Shown: positions 11,201 to 31,344 of the stretch, piece after piece
Position numbering within the stretch: the stretch's first letter is position 1
How the letters are laid out: every line of letters begins with the position of its first letter
Source of the DNA: Prevotella sp.
Lineage (GTDB): Bacteria; Bacteroidota; Bacteroidia; Bacteroidales; Bacteroidaceae
DNA: 35,811 nt
Direction: 5' to 3'
NCBI GenBank assembly: GCA_017445845.1
Contig: JAFSRY010000084.1
Coordinates: 1 to 35,811 of the forward strand
The notes under the pieces: generated by a model
What the model saw: only the letters and a program-made list of their open reading frames with translations
Database searches by the model: none
What the model was told of the DNA's origin: nothing
Position numbers and translations under genes: made by a program

Positions 11201-12264
11201 TTGAATGCGTCAACGACGGACCCATCGTGGCGAAGGACATCCGCGACCAGATCTTCACACCATTCTTCCGAGCAGAAGGTTCCAAGCAGACCGGAACAGG
11301 CATCGGACTGGCGCTGGCTCGAACGTTGGCAGAGCTGCACGGCGGAACGCTCACCATGGGCGACTCAGAGGAAATGAACGTGTTCCAGCTCAGCCTGCCC
11401 ATCGAACAGGCCTCGGCCATCCGACTCAACAGCGAACCGCCCATGCCCTTCGAAGAAGAACCCAAAGAGTCGCAGCCAGACATCACCGACACTCCGGCAG
11501 CAACCCCAGAGGACGAAAAGCCGACGGTGCTCATTGTGGAGGACAACCAAGAAATGCTTCAATATGAGCGGCGCGTCATCGGACGTGTCTACAGCGTACT
11601 CACTGCTGCCAACGGCGAACAAGCCCTGCAGGTGCTGGCCAGCCACGACGTCGACATCATCGTCTCCGACGCCATGATGGAACCCATCGGCGGCTTCGAA
11701 CTGTGCAGGCGCGTCAAGGAAGACATCAACTACAGCCACATCCCCTTCATCCTGCTCACTGCCCTCACACTCGACACGTCGAAGGTGGAGGCCATGGAGA
11801 GCGGTGCCGACTCATACATAGAAAAACCATTCTCGGCCGAATACCTCTTCAGCGTCATACAGAACCTCATCCGACAACGCGACAACATGCGGCAGGCCTA
11901 TGCCAACTCTCCCTTTGTGCAGAGCAATGCCGTCACCATCAGCCATGCCGACGAAGAATTTGTGAAACGTCTGGAAAAGGTGGTCAGCGAACACCTCAGC
12001 GACAAAGACTTCGACATCGCACTGCTCGCATCAGAAATGTTTATGAGCCGTACCAGCCTGAATAGAAAAATGCGAGGCATCTTCCAGCTCACGCCAAATA
12101 ACTATATCAAGGTGGAACGGCTCAAGCGGGCAGCTCAGCTGCTAAAGACTGGCGACTGCAAAGTCAGTGAGGTTTGTTACATCGTAGGCTTCAGCTCGCC
12201 CTCCTACTTCTCACAGTGCTTCTACAAGCAGTTCGGCCTGTTGCCAAAAGACTTTGTGAATTAA
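8287..12264 (+). CDS. Hybrid two-component system sensor/regulator (HTCS), AraC-type output
   Basis: This 1325-residue one-protein signalling system has a signal peptide (cut near AAYA/DPSY), then about ten two-component-regulator propeller repeats (for example MWFGTKDGLNRFDG, IWIGTEDHGLNVYD, LWVGTFSHGLKILD). A Y_Y_Y domain (about 710-765) and one membrane helix (about 778-797) follow. The HisKA motif is NVAHEIRTPLSL with H832, and the HATPase has NLMNNAVKY and GTGIGLAL. The receiver has IVSDAMMEPIGG with D1128, and an AraC helix-turn-helix fills the last 100 residues. In Bacteroidota such proteins sense a glycan fragment in the periplasm and switch on a nearby PUL. Here the immediate neighbours are ABC transporter genes, and the SusC/SusD operon starts 18 kb away, so the target is open. 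Length and domain order are complete and normal. Confidence 0.96.
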   Translation: MNIHKRILSLLLLTASLAAYADPSYLFKHFDMQTGLSQYSVLAITQDDTGFMWFGTKDGLNRFDGQYFKVYRSGEGSHGLDCDYINCLYKDPLNQLWVGTDRGIYLYSSLTDSFSRFDRVTNSGERIENNINLIYGHGDDVYINSQLQGVFRYNVTKQSLDHYPMKGLSNVTSLAIGDDGRIWLGMFGGGLLYTDDAFRHVITYLDKDGRDCFDGHTIFGIVPTEQGRLFVCDNLSGLHEVNTKENTVTNVMPDADRRVYAHALIRNGNELWMATEDGLYVFEMLTRDMRHFCYEPSNPFSISDNSLQCVFRDRDGGIWIGSYFGGVNYAPHRPYVIEKFFPRSDVKGSLSGRRVRELAEDANGHIWIGTEDHGLNVYDPHTGLFRYIAESAAFPNIHGISIVGNELWVGTFSHGLKILDLNTGRIVRSYRDKAPGASLPDNSVFTICPTDDKIYLGQLSGLTVYDPKTNTFTPDTLIAGKIVYDIHQDRKGALWVALYGNGLYQRQKGATQWKLYSAGDSLRHIPSNNVLSIFEDAKGRIWITTEGQGIALYDTESDSFDSVRLPIDKSQRTIFQIVEDTRGQLWMSSSGGLIRYNPATDNARIYTTENGLLDNSFNYSSSLLASDGRIYMGSLNGFIAFTPGSFVDDDDKPVIVATQLFINNINVDNFSPSGSPLKESITATRRLTLRHDENSFSLRVALMNFDDTNTQPIEYRLEGFDNNWQNLYGENTITYTNLPAGTYQLKVRTRYSDGEPAPETYELTVVVKPSPWATWWARLGYLLIVLLFSWLVYRYFSHRAALRRRIQMEKFEHEKDQELYESKINFFTNVAHEIRTPLSLIKGPLNDILGQHQPDEGEEYENLSIMGKNVDRLLDLTNQLLDFRRTERDGLRLNFEKCNIGSVVESVYERFIPTMRQHGIEATISLPQTPFTAYIDREAFTKIISNLMNNAVKYCEHTIRITLTTESERFRVECVNDGPIVAKDIRDQIFTPFFRAEGSKQTGTGIGLALARTLAELHGGTLTMGDSEEMNVFQLSLPIEQASAIRLNSEPPMPFEEEPKESQPDITDTPAATPEDEKPTVLIVEDNQEMLQYERRVIGRVYSVLTAANGEQALQVLASHDVDIIVSDAMMEPIGGFELCRRVKEDINYSHIPFILLTALTLDTSKVEAMESGADSYIEKPFSAEYLFSVIQNLIRQRDNMRQAYANSPFVQSNAVTISHADEEFVKRLEKVVSEHLSDKDFDIALLASEMFMSRTSLNRKMRGIFQLTPNNYIKVERLKRAAQLLKTGDCKVSEVCYIVGFSSPSYFSQCFYKQFGLLPKDFVN

Positions 12265-12283
12265 AAAAGACTTTGTGAATTAA
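12246..12283. repeat. 19-bp tandem duplication across the HTCS stop codon
   Basis: AAAAGACTTTGTGAATTAA occurs twice back to back (12246-12264 and 12265-12283). The first copy encodes the last residues KDFVN and the stop; the second repeats them untranslated. Confidence 0.9.
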
Positions 12284-12290
12284 AAAACTA

Positions 12291-12340: not shown

Positions 12341-12449
12341 GTATTGCAGGCTTCCTGTAAGGCCATTTCATCGTTTTCTCAACCACGATAAGCAGTTCAG
12401 GCACGAAGGCTTGAAAGACTTCTGTATGCCGATGCTTAGAAACTAAAAA

Positions 12450-12515
12450 GCAAATCAACTGAATTTAGTCAGCAAATCAACTGAATTTGGTCAGCAAATT
12501 AACTGAATTTACTTT
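12450..12515. repeat. 22-bp tandem array A, three units
   Basis: Three contiguous 22-bp units each contain AAATCAACTGAATTT (one base differs in unit three) followed by a linker TAGTCA, TGGTCA or TACTTT. The core is an imperfect palindrome centred on unit position 10. The GGTCA linker falls at the same unit position as in the array at 31103. It lies in the gene-free region after the HTCS terminator. Confidence 0.85.
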
Positions 12516-12636
12516 TACGATACTTACACATATCATAAAGGATGCTTATCATTGTCCCATCCAAAAGATATTCTTTATTATTGCTGTCCGCTAAAACGGC
12601 CCGAACCAAAGGTCGACGGCCGAAGGGAAATTCAAG

Positions 12637-12700
12637 GGCCAACAAGAACATAACATGAACTAAGCCCGGGGCGCTGTCCTGGGCTTAGTTATAGTTGGCC
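12637..12700. other. Nested stem-loop, possible structured RNA or element remnant
   Basis: An outer pair GGCCAAC (12637-12643) with GTTGGCC (12694-12700) encloses a perfect 10-bp inner pair AACTAAGCCC (12658-12667) with GGGCTTAGTT (12681-12690). There is no U tract after either stem and no ORF. The function is unknown. Confidence 0.45.
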
Positions 12701-12767
12701 TTTCAGGCCGCCACAAGTGGGAGGAAATCGAGAAATTTCAAAATTACCGGAAGCAATCATAAGAAAG

Positions 12768-12920
12768 AAGGCGTGTCAAAATAGAAATTCAATCGTCCTA
12801 CGGACGAGAAATCCTACAAATCGATACAAATCAAAAGTCCTGATAGACAAGATGAAAGATTTTGGATAGATTTGTGAGATTTCTGCGCAAAGCGCACTAC
12901 CTTCGATTTGACACGCCCTC
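12768..12920. mobile_element. REPIN-like element: two inverted REP-like arms
   Basis: The ends carry GGCGTGTCAAA (12770-12780) and its inverse TTTGACACGCC (12907-12917). Moving inward, each arm has a small hairpin (TCGTCCTACGGACGA on the left, TGCGCAAAGCGCA on the right) and then the same motif, GAAATC-CT/TC-ACAAATC, in inverted orientation. The two roughly 65-nt arms therefore match along their length, separated by a short A-rich centre. This resembles paired, inverted REP units mobilised by REP-associated transposases. There is no coding capacity. Confidence 0.6.
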
Positions 12921-12941
12921 TTTTGGGGCGGTGAGCAGTCA

Positions 12942-13685
12942 TTATCTCACTACGACTTTCCTGCCGTTGATGATATTGATACCCTTCACAGGCGCACTGA
13001 GCTGCTGACCGGTGATGGAGTAGTAAGCCTTATCGGACTTAGCGGTGTTCACGCTGCGGATGCCCGTAGACTTATTCTCGTCGAACATTGGCAGGTCAGC
13101 ACCAATCTCACGGAAGATAGCATAGACATAGGTGTCGGGCGTCTCGTGGAATTTCGAGAGGTCTTTGGCACAATCTTCGCGGCTGGGTGTGTCGTTGGCA
13201 CTCGTTCCGTCTTCGTCATGCTCGGACTTCGGAACATTGATGTTGATGATGTCCTGACCGGTCCAGAAGAAACTGATCGTACGCTCGTTCTCCTTGTCAC
13301 CCTCGATGCTGGGATAGCAGTCGTCGGGACCATAGACGCCGTCCTCGGTAACCTTGTCGGCAAGGCATACAAGTTCGTAGCCTGCCTCAGGGAGAGCATC
13401 GACCATCACCTCGAAGACACCCAGACCCTTGTTGCAGCCGATGGTATAGTCGCCGCCGCCACCATTCTCGGCAAAAACCAACTTGATGAATGCCGACTCG
13501 CCCATGTTATCGGAGCAGTCGACGAGATAGTTGGCATCATCGCCATTCTTCGGCTCCAGATAGACTGTACCGGCACCGGTAGGATTGGCGTAGACCTCTA
13601 CATAAAGATTCTTGTACGGGGTGATGCCTGCGCTTGCTGTTGCGGCCATCAGGACGACGACCATCAATGTAAATACTTTCTTCAT
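12942..13685 (-). CDS. Secreted protein of unknown function with GRKVVVR-type C-terminal tail
   Basis: The 247-residue protein starts at MKKVFTLMVVV (13685); the upstream in-frame extension crosses the promoter and is not used. It has a signal peptide (cut near ATASA/GITPY) and an extracytoplasmic body rich in Asp, Gly and aromatic residues. A C-terminal segment, GIRSVNTAKS...YYSITGQQL...GINIINGRKVVVR, resembles the tail common on Prevotella secreted proteins and similar to Por-type sorting tails. It is a paralogue of 18405-19175: both share TPxKNLYVExYAxPTGAGxVY near the mature N-terminus, the central cell of GYELVC/GWELVC, and FHETPDTYVYAIFR/WNEEPDTKIYVIFR. I do not recognise an enzymatic motif. 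It may be a surface or matrix protein. It is monocistronic with its own promoter. Confidence 0.8.
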   Translation of the reverse strand: MKKVFTLMVVVLMAATASAGITPYKNLYVEVYANPTGAGTVYLEPKNGDDANYLVDCSDNMGESAFIKLVFAENGGGGDYTIGCNKGLGVFEVMVDALPEAGYELVCLADKVTEDGVYGPDDCYPSIEGDKENERTISFFWTGQDIININVPKSEHDEDGTSANDTPSREDCAKDLSKFHETPDTYVYAIFREIGADLPMFDENKSTGIRSVNTAKSDKAYYSITGQQLSAPVKGINIINGRKVVVR

Positions 13686-13894: not shown

Positions 13895-14136
13895 CTTAAC
13901 AGGCTGTGATAATAGTGTTAACAAGCATTGTTAAGACTGTTAACAAGCATTGTTAAGACTGTTATCAGGCATTGTTAAGACTGTTATCAATGCCTGGTAA
14001 CAATCCCGATGCTTTCTTTCGTCATCTCCGATACAGCCTATCGACATGTCCGATACAGCCTATCGACATCTCCGATACAGCCTATCGACATGTCCGATAC
14101 AGCCTATCGGCAAGCCCGATAATGCCTTTCGGCGCT
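13895..14136. repeat. 22-bp tandem array B, eleven units with two core types
   Basis: Eleven contiguous units of exactly 22 bp start at 13895, 13917 and so on to 14115. Units 1-5 carry variants of TTAACAAGCATTGTTAA; units 6-11 carry variants of CCGATACAGCCTATCGG. Cores are palindromic, mostly centred on unit position 10, with a centre such as GCAT, GCCT or GGCT. The phase is unbroken where the arm sequence changes between units 5 and 6. The last two units overlap the 3' end of the minus-strand gene at 14104. Confidence 0.9.
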
Positions 14137-15303
14137 CCAGAAAAGACAGACACTACGAACCAGCAACGGGCTTACCATCCATATACGCAGCGCATCGACC
14201 TGCGGAGAGAACGGCCACAGACACACATAGAAGACGAGTACAGCCACATAGAGTCCGAAGACCCGCCCGTACCAACAGCGATGGCGGAACAACAGCCACA
14301 ACAGCAGCGGCAGCGGATTGAACACCAGAAGGTTCCAGTTGCCGGCAGCGCCTTCCATGTGGGAAATACACGAAATATAGAAGAGGAACAGCCCGATGAG
14401 CGTCTGAAAGGTGAGCAGAAGACCATCGAAAGCAAATGCCGGCCAACGGGCTGACTGCGGCTTCGCCAACTGCCAGAGGCTGACGGCAACAGCCAGCAGC
14501 AACACGAGCAGGAAGAGATGAGACGGTGTGAACGGGGCTGGGGAAATAGCAAATCCGTGAGGCAACAGCGTTGCAGGCTGTCCTACGACGAACGGCCGCT
14601 CGTGGCCTTCTGTATCGACGATGCGCATCTGCAGCAGCGATTTGCGTATCAGCATCGGTGCCATCTTGTCCTCAATGTTGCCATTGGTATCGCCATGGGC
14701 TCCGAGAATGGTCGTCCAGAAGAAATATGCCCACGGCTGATCTTCGGATATGCGGCCGATGAAGTGGCGATAGGTGCCGGTGATGCCGTCGTCGTAGCTG
14801 TCGCAGACAATCCTTTCGTCTGCCAGGACCCGTTCTACGGCATATATCGACATCGACGAGCAGTTGGTGTGCAGGTAGTTGTAGGGGCGTCGCGTCTTGC
14901 GTGCCACCTCCTGGTCGAGCAGCTGCCAGAGCTGACGTTTCTGGTCGAGGGTGAGGTTCAGTTCGTATACTTCCACACCACGATTATACATTTCGTATTC
15001 CTTCAGAAACGAAGGTGTCTTCATGGCGACGTACGACCCGACGGCATTGCCGCGGAAAAGTCTGGTGCGGTTGGAGAAATTGTCTTCCATATAGTAGGAG
15101 AACACGAAGTCGAGTCCCTTCGACGGGCACTCCATACGCAGGGCACAATGACCGTAGCCAGAATAGAAGTCGTCGCCCGCATCACATACCAGCAACGAGG
15201 CGTGCAGGTCGGTAGGCAGTCCGAGTGAGTCGGTAGCAGCTTCGTCAGCCCATACTCCGACTCCCACTAAAAAGGCCAGAATGCACAAAGTCAAACGTTT
15301 CAT
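14104..15303 (-). CDS. Membrane protein with Lnb-type N-terminal periplasmic domain (DUF4105)
   Basis: This 399-residue protein starts at MKRLTLCILAF (15303) with a signal sequence; ATG at 15318 and GTG at 15342 are also in frame. The periplasmic domain (about 30-250) has the family's conserved GYGHCALRMECPSKG (H52) and NYLHTNC (C148), likely the His/Cys pair. Four or five hydrophobic helices follow from about residue 270. The family is called Lnb N-terminal periplasmic domain, and members are linked to lipoprotein N-acylation, so a role in lipoprotein maturation at the inner membrane is possible but unproven here. It is the third gene of an operon after a second DUF4105 protein and an adenylate-forming ligase. 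The last residues are encoded inside repeat array B, so the C-terminus may have been altered by it. Confidence 0.8.
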   Translation of the reverse strand: MKRLTLCILAFLVGVGVWADEAATDSLGLPTDLHASLLVCDAGDDFYSGYGHCALRMECPSKGLDFVFSYYMEDNFSNRTRLFRGNAVGSYVAMKTPSFLKEYEMYNRGVEVYELNLTLDQKRQLWQLLDQEVARKTRRPYNYLHTNCSSMSIYAVERVLADERIVCDSYDDGITGTYRHFIGRISEDQPWAYFFWTTILGAHGDTNGNIEDKMAPMLIRKSLLQMRIVDTEGHERPFVVGQPATLLPHGFAISPAPFTPSHLFLLVLLLAVAVSLWQLAKPQSARWPAFAFDGLLLTFQTLIGLFLFYISCISHMEGAAGNWNLLVFNPLPLLLWLLFRHRCWYGRVFGLYVAVLVFYVCLWPFSPQVDALRIWMVSPLLVRSVCLFWSAERHYRACR

Positions 15304-15335
15304 TTTCTTTTTTAACATGTAAGTTGACAAGTAAT

Positions 15336-15375
15336 TTTTCACCTTTTCACCTTTTCACCTTTTCAACTTTTCATC
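15336..15375. repeat. 8-bp tandem repeat at the ligase/DUF4105 junction
   Basis: Five octamers read TTTTCACC three times, then TTTTCAAC and TTTTCATC on the plus strand. On the coding strand this is GGTGAAAA-type repeats covering the last codons of the ligase and the region just before the DUF4105 start. Eight is not a multiple of three. Confidence 0.85.
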
Positions 15376-17102
15376 TTGGGTTTCCTCTCCAATGCCCGAT
15401 AGTCAATCTTGCCACGGTCGGTGCGAGGCATCGTCGAGAGGACATGAACCTCGGAAGGAATCATATATGCCGGCAACTGACCTTGACACCAGCGGATGAC
15501 AGACTGACAGACCTCCGCCTCACCGACTCCAGCCGCCTTGGGAGAGACCACGACGTAGGCGATGGGCAGATTGATGCGTGTCGCGTCGGTTTTGCCTACA
15601 ACGCAACACTCTTCAATCTCCGGCATCTGCATGATGACACTCTCTATACGCTCGGGGAATATCTTCGACACCATTCCATTTTCGTCCTTCTGCATGATGA
15701 GCCGCTTCAGACGACCTGTAAGGAAAAGAAGCCCGTCCTCGTTCATATAGCCCACGTCGCCCGTATGAAGCCAGCGTGTGCCGTCGGCATCGGTCTTGAT
15801 GATGTCGGCCGTGGCCTCGGGGTTCTTATAGTAGCCCACCATGATGGTAGGACCGGAAAAACAAATCTCGCCTTCCTCGTTATACGACAGTTCCTCACCC
15901 GTCGTGACATCAACGATGCGGCAGTTGGTCTTCAGGAAAGGAATGCCCACGCTGCCCGGCACTTTTGCCCAAGGATAGGTGCCGACGACACCACTTGTAG
16001 ACTCCGTCATGCCGAGACCCATCATCAGGTTCAACCGGCCGCCACCGGCATGAAGGATGTCGTTGACAGCCTTCTCCGTTTCAACATCCATACTCTCGCC
16101 GCCACTGGCAATAGCCCGAAGGCTGGAAAAGGCATTCTTCCGAATCTTTGAGATATGGAAAAGGGCCTCCCAATAAGCGGGAATGGAATGGATAAAATTG
16201 ACCTTATAGCGATAGATGTATTCGGGCAGTTTGCTGGGGTCGTATTTCGGGATGAGCAATACACGGAAGCCATAGCAGAACGATTCCAATATCGTGACAA
16301 GGCTGTAGTTGATGAATGGCGGCAACTGAATCATCATGCAGTCTTGCCGCCGACAGCCGCGACCCTCTACCATCTGCCACATCTGACCGATAATGTTCAT
16401 GTTGGAATTGACAACGCCTTTCGGTCGACCCGTCGTCCCTCCGGTATGCGAGATAACAGCCCAGTCGTCATCGGCACGCTCCACACGTTGGGGAAGCGTC
16501 ACTCCCCTGCCCTGCTTCATGAATGTCCCCCACGTCATCACAAGAGAGTTTTCAGATACACGCTCCTTGCGGTTCTTCAGAGCGTATATCGAGCGAAGCA
16601 CGGGCTGAAGCGACTGCGCAGGTGATACTACCACGAGTTTCTCTACAGAGACCTTGTCAAGATGGTCACGCAGAAGAGCATAGGTTCCCGTAAAGACAAA
16701 AGCCAGTCGATTGGGCATTTCGTTCAGGTAGTTCAACGTTTCTTCGGCACTTGCCAACGGGTGAATCATGTTTGCCACAGCTCCCAAACGGTTCAGCGCA
16801 TACACCAGATAAACAACCTCGGGCACGCTGGGCATGGCTATTGTGACGATGTCGTTGCGCCTCACACCCAGTGCCAGCAGGCTCTGTGTGCAAAGGTCTA
16901 TCTGACGGAACACTTCGCCATAACGTATCGTGCGAGACAGATAATGACAGGCTATATCGTCAGGATACGAATGATTGTTCTCTACAAAATACTCATAGAG
17001 CGTGCAGGTGAACACTTCCGCCTTTACATGCGCTGCATCATAATATTTCAGCCAAGGCTGGTCGACTGACGGAAGCCCAACAAGGTTTGTCTCCCTACTC
17101 AT
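15363..17102 (-). CDS. Class I adenylate-forming enzyme (acyl-CoA synthetase / AMP-ligase family)
   Basis: The 579-residue cytosolic enzyme activates a carboxylate with ATP to an acyl-adenylate and usually passes it to CoA or a carrier. All core motifs are present: the P-loop SHTGGTTGRPKG (residues 218-229), GLGMTES (362-368), the ATP-binding HTGD (446-449), the hinge TGRLKRLIM (462-470), and the C-terminal catalytic lysine in RGKIDY (K565). The substrate is not evident; acyl-binding residues resemble long- or medium-chain acyl ligases more than acetyl-CoA synthetase only in overall layout. The ATG overlaps the stop of the upstream DUF4105 gene by four bases (ATGA), showing translational coupling. 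Standing between two Lnb-type proteins, it may supply or recycle acyl groups for an envelope acylation step; this is inference. Confidence 0.92.
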   Translation of the reverse strand: MSRETNLVGLPSVDQPWLKYYDAAHVKAEVFTCTLYEYFVENNHSYPDDIACHYLSRTIRYGEVFRQIDLCTQSLLALGVRRNDIVTIAMPSVPEVVYLVYALNRLGAVANMIHPLASAEETLNYLNEMPNRLAFVFTGTYALLRDHLDKVSVEKLVVVSPAQSLQPVLRSIYALKNRKERVSENSLVMTWGTFMKQGRGVTLPQRVERADDDWAVISHTGGTTGRPKGVVNSNMNIIGQMWQMVEGRGCRRQDCMMIQLPPFINYSLVTILESFCYGFRVLLIPKYDPSKLPEYIYRYKVNFIHSIPAYWEALFHISKIRKNAFSSLRAIASGGESMDVETEKAVNDILHAGGGRLNLMMGLGMTESTSGVVGTYPWAKVPGSVGIPFLKTNCRIVDVTTGEELSYNEEGEICFSGPTIMVGYYKNPEATADIIKTDADGTRWLHTGDVGYMNEDGLLFLTGRLKRLIMQKDENGMVSKIFPERIESVIMQMPEIEECCVVGKTDATRINLPIAYVVVSPKAAGVGEAEVCQSVIRWCQGQLPAYMIPSEVHVLSTMPRTDRGKIDYRALERKPKMKS

Positions 17103-31102: not shown

Positions 31103-31344
31103 GTAAAATAGCCTATTTTGGTCGGTAAAATAGCCTATTTTGGTCAGTAAAATAGCCTATTTTGTTTTGTAAAATAGCCTATTTTGGTCGGTAAAATAGC
31201 CTATTTTAGTATTTCAACAGGCTGAATCGAGGGTAACGAAAGGCTGAAACGAAGGGAGAGAAAGGCTATATCGAAGGGACAGAAAGGTTGAGTTGTGGGG
31301 GCCGGCAGGGTGAGTCGTTGGTGACGAAAGCGAGGAACTGACCT
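31103..31344. repeat. 22-bp tandem array C, five near-identical plus about six degenerate units
   Basis: Units start at 31103, 31125, 31147, 31169 and 31191 with the palindrome AAAATAGCCTATTTT centred on unit position 10 and linkers such as TTGGTCG. The same 22-bp phase continues at 31213, 31235 and 31257 with a different core (AGGCTGA or AGGCTAT in the middle and CGAAGGG at the end). It then fades through 31279, 31301 and 31323. The array lies in the 590-bp divergent region between the SusD operon and GH92. The remaining bases there (30898-31102) are AT-rich and hold no clear promoter to full consensus. Confidence 0.85.

Follow-up and report, generated by a model that had tools for sequence, protein, structure and literature searches.

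The array of 22-bp units at positions 13895-14136 of a Prevotella sp. contig (JAFSRY010000084.1 of assembly GCA_017445845.1, analysed over its whole 35,811 nucleotides, here called the window) is best accounted for as a lattice of putative sites for dimeric HU-HIG proteins of the HU/IHF superfamily, sites that would be specific to individual paralogues and often autoregulatory, and to this reading a probability of roughly 0.6 is given. In such a lattice each unit would comprise a 17-bp site, made of two 6-bp half-sites in inverted orientation at a distance of 11 bp, together with a 5-bp linker whose length is fixed and whose sequence is free. Neighbouring dimers would lie on one face of the DNA at a spacing of 22 bp, or about two helical turns, which would permit side-by-side assembly, and paralogues with different half-sites and a common pitch could build mixed-type lattices in phase. 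Many HU-HIG genes have an array of their own upstream of the promoter, pointing to probable autoregulation, and the remaining copies, including that at 13895-14136, would act as target or nucleoid-organising sites. The evidence consists of the lattice and its phase, the conservation of cores and linker length at one promoter, and an association of the arrays with HU-HIG genes.

The description of the array in an earlier note on this DNA, as eleven contiguous 22-bp units of two core types on one lattice, is borne out by direct reading of the sequence and by TRF, which reports a period of 22 with 0% indels in each half. That note had also centred nearly all cores on unit position 10, and the dyad does lie there for most units of the common lattice, the best centre being 1 position off in unit 1 and 0.5 off in unit 6, where arm pairing is also poor (3/9). 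The paired changes that it saw in the arms of unit 5 (GTTATCA with TGGTAAC) have not survived closer reading, in that the complementarity is one position short of perfect and unit 5 is unit 4 read in the opposite orientation, the two forming a 22-nt inverted repeat that is 86% complementary. The array overlaps the end of a gene, with the stop of the minus-strand reading frame 14104-15342 in unit 10 and unit 11 within the frame, and it starts 210 bp upstream of the start codon of the gene at 12942-13685 (Table 1). Given this placing a promoter role at 12942-13685 is possible but not indicated, and the array may just as well have a role in the nucleoid or as an insulator. A scan of the flanking Lnb protein against the contig collection confirmed nothing.

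Table 1. Features of the window and of the upstream regions of host HU-HIG genes; positions refer to the window, and negative values to the region upstream of the gene named.
Feature	Position	Strand	Remark
Second 22-bp array, three units near CAAATCAACTGAATTTA	12449..12511	.	Type present in many other Prevotella genomes
Gene with start facing array 13895-14136	12942..13685	-	No Pfam match
Units 1-5 of array 13895-14136	13895..14004	.	TTANCA-N5-TGNTAA cores and 5-bp linkers
Units 6-11 of array 13895-14136	14005..14136	.	CG-N11-CG (CCGATA-N5-TATCGG) cores, phase as in units 1-5
Lnb_N/5TMH_Lnb protein gene	14104..15342	-	3' end inside array 13895-14136
Third array, five units, core TAAAATAGCCTATTTT	31103..31212	.	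Type as in the array upstream of HU-HIG gene L280
Degenerate units in phase with third array	31213..31322	.	CG-N11-CG motifs at two lattice positions
22-bp array upstream of L278	-143 to -60		
22-bp array upstream of L280	-225 to -121		AAAATA type as at 31103, beside CG-type units
22-bp array upstream of L281	-177 to -93		

The window contains repeats of other kinds as well. A MITE-like element of about 165 bp at 12759-12925, with the inverted ends GGCGTGTCAAA ... TTTGACACGCC, has a second copy in the host genome that is 96% identical, and several more genomes of the genus carry it complete or in part at 72-96%. Short intergenic segments within 12603-12717 (query 304-345 and 366-418), which share their intergenic gap with the CAAATC array at 12449-12511, are matched at 85-97% in further genomes of the genus. 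At 12246-12287 an exact 19-bp direct repeat of 2.2 copies runs across the 3' end of a hybrid two-component regulator gene, duplicating the stop region, and at 15336-15377 an 8-bp repeat, TTTTCACC, lies between two genes and resembles tracts matched in many genomes of the genus.

Arrays with a 22-bp period number in the dozens in the host genome, which is 75.5% complete, and BLAST with the array itself finds 27 places there. A host sample of 427 kb, composed of the window and 391 kb from four long contigs that were chosen knowing their array matches and is hence not fully blind, holds 16 segments repeated at lag 22 (75% identity over 40 bp) and none at lags 19, 20, 21 and 23; of the host intergenic TRF rows with a period of at least 10, 19 of 30 have period 22. 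The regularity is exact, since the 129 sites of the form TTNNCW-N5-WGNNAA in the host loci yield 168 pairs within 140 bp and all 168 are spaced by exact multiples of 22, a count that, like the counts of lattice units, covariation, conservation and phase in general, mixes unchosen loci with loci chosen for matching the array (L002-L008, L029-L047). The unit that emerges is one of two 6-bp half-sites 11 bp apart in alternating orientation (H-N5-H'-N5), giving a 17-bp core and a 5-bp linker. TTANCA is the type of most of the host units listed, and the TGACCA, TAAAAT, CCGATA and CAAATC types are readable in the same register; for some arrays of relatives, read by eye, a 6-6-6-4 arrangement fits better. 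Between adjacent units of host arrays with an odd dyad, taken together, differences are rarer in half-sites (106/1,553) than in spacers (148/1,242), and in arrays of relatives the half-sites are not clearly better conserved than the spacers. Gaps that carry arrays are convergent, tandem and divergent alike.

Elsewhere in the host genome, too, units of different types keep a common phase. CG-N11-CG motifs that flank arrays of another type, within 132 bp, lie at phase 0 mod 22 in 61 of 71 cases (22/23 beside AAAATA arrays, 37/44 beside TTANCA and 2/4 beside TGACCA), where the motif was picked after some of its loci were known and motifs within one locus are not independent. The interiors of these CG-type units differ widely. 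Judged by the in-phase motifs around arrays of other types, it is common in this genome for the core to change where one unit meets the next, and the switch between units 5 and 6, which the earlier note had placed exactly at such a border, is confirmed as an instance of it. In other species the surroundings of CAAAT-type arrays (L195, L201, L202, L203), inspected by eye, likewise show mixed types in phase.

The array itself has no BLAST match in 29 other genomes (17 of the same genus and 12 of other families), nor was it matched in phage records, and the CAAAT-type pattern found no match in viral contigs. Related genomes carry 22-bp intergenic arrays with other cores, such as TGCATCAAATTGTGGTGCA (G016), GGGTAATCCAATTACCC (G036) and CAAAAACATAGGTTTTG (G006). 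Intergenic autocorrelation peaks at 22, 44 and 66 in G003, G016 and G006, and the peaks are kept in G003 and G016 and lost in G006 once all detected repeats are masked; in the host genome, masking of the arrays leaves the rise at 21-22 and removes the 44-bp harmonic. Across 40.5 kb of intergenic DNA from 20 genomes of the genus, some of which had been sampled earlier, TRF gives 13 rows at period 22 and 9 at period 21, and in 40.0 kb of intergenic DNA from 12 genomes of other families it gives none at period 22 and two each at periods 20, 21 and 23. No lag-22 signal appears in G009, G061, G034 (2.5 kb) or G007 (1.6 kb). In G009 (L086, L107 and other stretches) the periods are 14, 21 and 28, some arrays consist of 7-bp words, and no N-terminal HU-HIG occurs among the matches listed. 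The 22-bp arrays for which the earlier note had proposed a search in the host and in related Prevotella are therefore present across the genome and in many, not all, of the sampled species of the genus, and with this spread a local satellite is ruled out.

The constraint on such arrays can be followed at one promoter. A 37-bp pattern of the unit type found at 12449 occurs at 71 loci of the contig collection, 67 of which are labelled Prevotella, Prevotellaceae or Xylanibacter, and it is present in the isolates tf2-5, D31d, MA2016 and P6B1, so that it is not an assembly artefact. Two records with this Prevotella unit type, L207 and L276, are labelled as Clostridiales and Dokdonia MAGs and are perhaps misassigned contigs. 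Seven of the 71 loci represent one promoter in seven species (L231, L247, L263, L259, L240, L256 and L251). Here the cores scarcely vary (CAAATTCACTGAATTTG and forms close to it), the linkers are always 5 bp long and are identical only between MA2016 and SIG140, being mostly different otherwise, and the sequence outside the array can be aligned only within close pairs. Fixed pitch, conserved cores and linkers of free sequence and fixed length, the features of an array of protein operators, are thus found together. In the five loci where both could be located, a TANNTTTG box, which we take to be the Bacteroidetes -7 element, lies 35 to 57 bp downstream of the proximal end of the array. At five of the seven loci (L240 and L251 gave no protein by the start pattern) the product starts with MAIQYRLLQNKIKGSKNYGKYYAHTV, with small differences, and scores 186-211 bits in BLASTP against the host protein L278; judged by sequence, the gene behind this promoter is a close homologue of that HU-HIG protein.

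These data bear on the proposal that the arrays are minisatellites, neutral or selfish, which lack a partner protein and have spread through slippage and through recombination between arrays. Such an origin would be in keeping with units that are often near-identical within an array, with degenerate array ends, with the distance of at least 150 bp that separates the arrays of the host sample from start codons, and with the use of other units by other species, the array here being unmatched in the 29 other genomes. It is nonetheless judged improbable, for TTANCA-type sites show no phase slips and flanking CG motifs few, cores and linker length are kept over seven species, and a single gene family is associated with the arrays, on its upstream side.

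The palindromic character of the units raises the further question of whether they work as hairpins in RNA or single-stranded DNA. Folded as RNA, the array does far better than shuffled sequence (z -9.2 and -6.7), a result that tandem inverted half-sites would be expected to give anyway, and in CG-type units pairing is in excess at three of the five inner position pairs when distinct units are counted (P 0.001, 0.005 and 0.008, against 0.44, 0.09 and 0.003 with all units), with no excess at the remaining two. Over 93 lattice units of the TTANCA type, however, the variable half-site position 4/14 is paired in 0.30 of cases versus 0.39 after shuffling (P for excess 0.99), and at position 6/12 the values are 0.85 versus 0.79, nominally significant (P 0.016) and no longer so with distinct units (P 0.29). 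Independence at the fourth position is what a protein site that tolerates variation there would show, and a stem would not. The absence of covariation at this position leaves paired arm changes unsupported and makes hairpins unlikely; with an exact 22-bp pitch that hairpins do not need and no Rfam match in the window at the gathering threshold, they are considered very improbable. Palindromy itself is a tendency and not universal, given that few arrays reach a consensus palindromy of P 0.05 (13 of 39 in the host and 7 of 39 in relatives); a scan of palindrome spacing in the host sample gave three pairs at 22 with a pairing threshold that missed most of these cores. Of the earlier interpretation, then, the paired arms and the hairpins are not supported, and what stands is a fixed lattice bearing sites for a family of factors as opposed to a simple satellite, as is indicated by the other cores in related genomes, the in-phase type changes and the cores and linker length kept over seven species.

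The HU-HIG family comes into view through the genes that lie beside the arrays. The host genome has five HU-HIG genes (PF18291, 66.6-88.2 bits, matched from profile position 1 or 6) and four weaker HU-type matches, and its candidate proteins exceed the PF18291 cut-off with the N-terminal part included. L278 scores 88 bits with PF18291 and 62.8 bits with TIGR01201 (HU_rel), just below the cut-off of 68.6 for that model, and has no match among solved structures at E 0.01. By TRF three of the five genes (L278, L280 and L281) have an upstream 22-bp array. Upstream of L282 four 17-bp units, read by eye, follow one another at 22-bp spacing as CAAAACAACTTGTTTTG, two CG-type units and CAAAACAACTTGTTTTG again, and upstream of L279 there is no array. 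CG-type units therefore stand at two HU-HIG promoters, those of L280 and L282, and the two unit types before L280, AAAATA and CG, are those of the window at 31103-31322. In the host genome, at its 75.5% completeness, none of the HU-HIG genes proved to have a TTANCA array.

Over a wider set from the genus, an upstream array, defined as 2.4 or more copies of a 21- or 22-bp period no further than 350 bp away, is computed for 17 of 67 HU-HIG genes (18 with L281 reframed), the figure for control genes being 42 of 1,250 (Fisher P 9e-11), and for 0 of 198 genes of other families. The 67 loci, like the larger set of 73, derive from an initial set plus the 40 best by bit score among the matches listed; the duplicate L330 and two loci with less than 250 bp upstream (L302, L355) were left out, and the misframed L281, L301, L314 and L341 were entered as negatives. 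For the 73 loci L281 was reframed, L301, L314 and L341 were omitted, and nine loci were added, three of them from G028, which belongs to another family. In this set 22 is the best upstream lag in 28 of 73 HU-HIG regions versus 106 of 1,250 controls, and a strong lag 22 is found in 17 of 73 versus 28 of 1,250; among the 363 controls whose upstream gap is 200 bp or longer, 27 have it (P 1.9e-4). Arrays lie on the upstream side of HU-HIG genes (9/25) and seldom downstream (1/25), and across 15 gene-array pairs the similarity of the proteins correlates with that of their units (Mantel rho 0.26, permutation P 0.011). This over-representation of lattices just upstream of HU-HIG genes suggests that each HU-HIG protein recognises its own private tandem array. 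Compared with lattice strength, the number of HU-HIG genes per genome among the matches listed gives rho 0.52 (P 0.07) over 13 genomes, which counts against the HU-HIG reading, and rho 0.76 (P 0.007) over the 11 whose intergenic DNA came to 4 kb or more, a restriction made post hoc; G007 and G034 have HU-HIG genes but no lag-22 signal in their 1.6 and 2.5 kb. Genomes of the genus have 2 to 30 PF18291 matches each among those listed, plain HU included, and the matches listed for 11 of the 12 genomes from other families are short HU-like frames that begin no earlier than profile position 20.

Pitch may also follow the protein subfamily, since 23-bp arrays accompany L335 (G003) and L344 (G017), which are HU-HIG genes of one subtype with arrays of different sequence, and L372 of G028, a HU-HIG gene from another family of the order, whose array, of 3.7 copies, contains ACACGTACGTGT. 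Two further genes of G028 have no array, and lag 23 is also the best in a few other regions.

HU-HIG genes could, on the other hand, be the targets of another regulator, with the lattices serving as operators for a different protein family and HU-HIG genes as frequent recipients and not as binders. The HU-HIG proteins are linked to the arrays by position only, the TTANCA arrays are without a HU-HIG partner in the available genome, 49 of the 67 HU-HIG genes have no detected array and most arrays do not adjoin a known HU-HIG gene. Helix-turn-helix dimers also suit 17-bp two-fold sites with an 11-bp half-site pitch, and HU proteins are mostly weakly sequence-specific, which counts against their HU-HIG relatives as readers of the arrays. 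On the same side stand the half-sites of relatives, no better conserved than spacers to any clear degree, palindromy that many arrays lack, and the 44-bp harmonic that masking removes from the host genome. A single external regulator would nevertheless be expected to leave a single unit, whereas HU-HIG genes bear many different units whose similarity tracks that of the proteins, and the alternative is regarded as unlikely. Binding by HU-HIG proteins, many of which would regulate themselves, appears the most economical account, and with it would go cooperative assembly and the assignment of HU-HIG paralogues to the TTANCA and CCGATA units of the window.

A broader form of the HU-HIG account can be put forward only tentatively. 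The family may be one of fast-diversifying, sequence-specific, lattice-forming histone-like proteins, in which each paralogue has a private 17-bp code laid out on 22-bp arrays (21- or 23-bp by subfamily), regulates itself and co-assembles in phase with others on composite lattices, which would amount to a chromatin-like code of several letters in bacteria. The genus is rich in HU-HIG-type genes and no described site was recognised for them in the literature searched. If the arrays are HU-HIG sites, bacteria of the gut and rumen have a widespread and unexplained class of intergenic DNA that can be read, the site of each paralogue becomes predictable from its own promoter, and the HU fold would include sequence-specific, fast-evolving builders of lattices.

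How, then, does this arrangement relate to known systems? The candidate binders match the HU/IHF-type models HU-HIG (PF18291) and HU_rel (TIGR01201), and the difference lies in the sites, which are weakly sequence-specific for known HU proteins and are here proposed to be private; private tandem arrays or sites for HU-HIG or HU_rel were not recognised in the literature searched, subscription journals being mostly outside its reach. REP/BIME elements with their RAYT proteins share dispersed intergenic palindromes with the lattices and differ in that a fixed tandem pitch is present here. They were rejected as a candidate, Y1_Tnp (PF01797) giving no match in the 75.5%-complete host genome with controls detected in 5 of 14.

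The nearest described repeat is BrickBuilt of P. gingivalis and P. gulae (PMC4596501), and beyond it no relevant literature was recognised. It too is a Bacteroidales intergenic tandem array with about two helical turns per unit, which in P. gingivalis occurs in 19 copies (PMC4596501), and it prompts the suggestion that the present arrays are mobile MITE-like elements with an internal minisatellite. BrickBuilt is built, however, from a single family of 23-nt units, where the period here is 22, with 0-6% indels per element and a leader and tail with inverted ends (PMC4596501). No common leader or tail is noticeable by eye in the lattices and the one alignment inspected, and several unit types occupy one phase here; a BrickBuilt-like origin is considered highly improbable. 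The portions of that paper available to us describe neither an in-phase change of unit type nor a link to HU-HIG, and in its Table 1 one of the 19 copies, BrickBuilt_14, adjoins a PF00216 gene (PMC4596501).

A functional parallel may be drawn with the arrays of phage repressors. Phage repressor operator clusters and stoperators consist of tandem two-fold sites separated by short linkers, with a private site for each repressor, autoregulation and few sites per phage. Tandem two-fold sites and short linkers are equally the form of the Prevotella arrays, for which private sites and autoregulation are inferred, whereas the Prevotella arrangement is distinguished by lattices that are numerous on the chromosome and have as many as eleven units, an exact 22-bp pitch and candidate binders with an HU fold.
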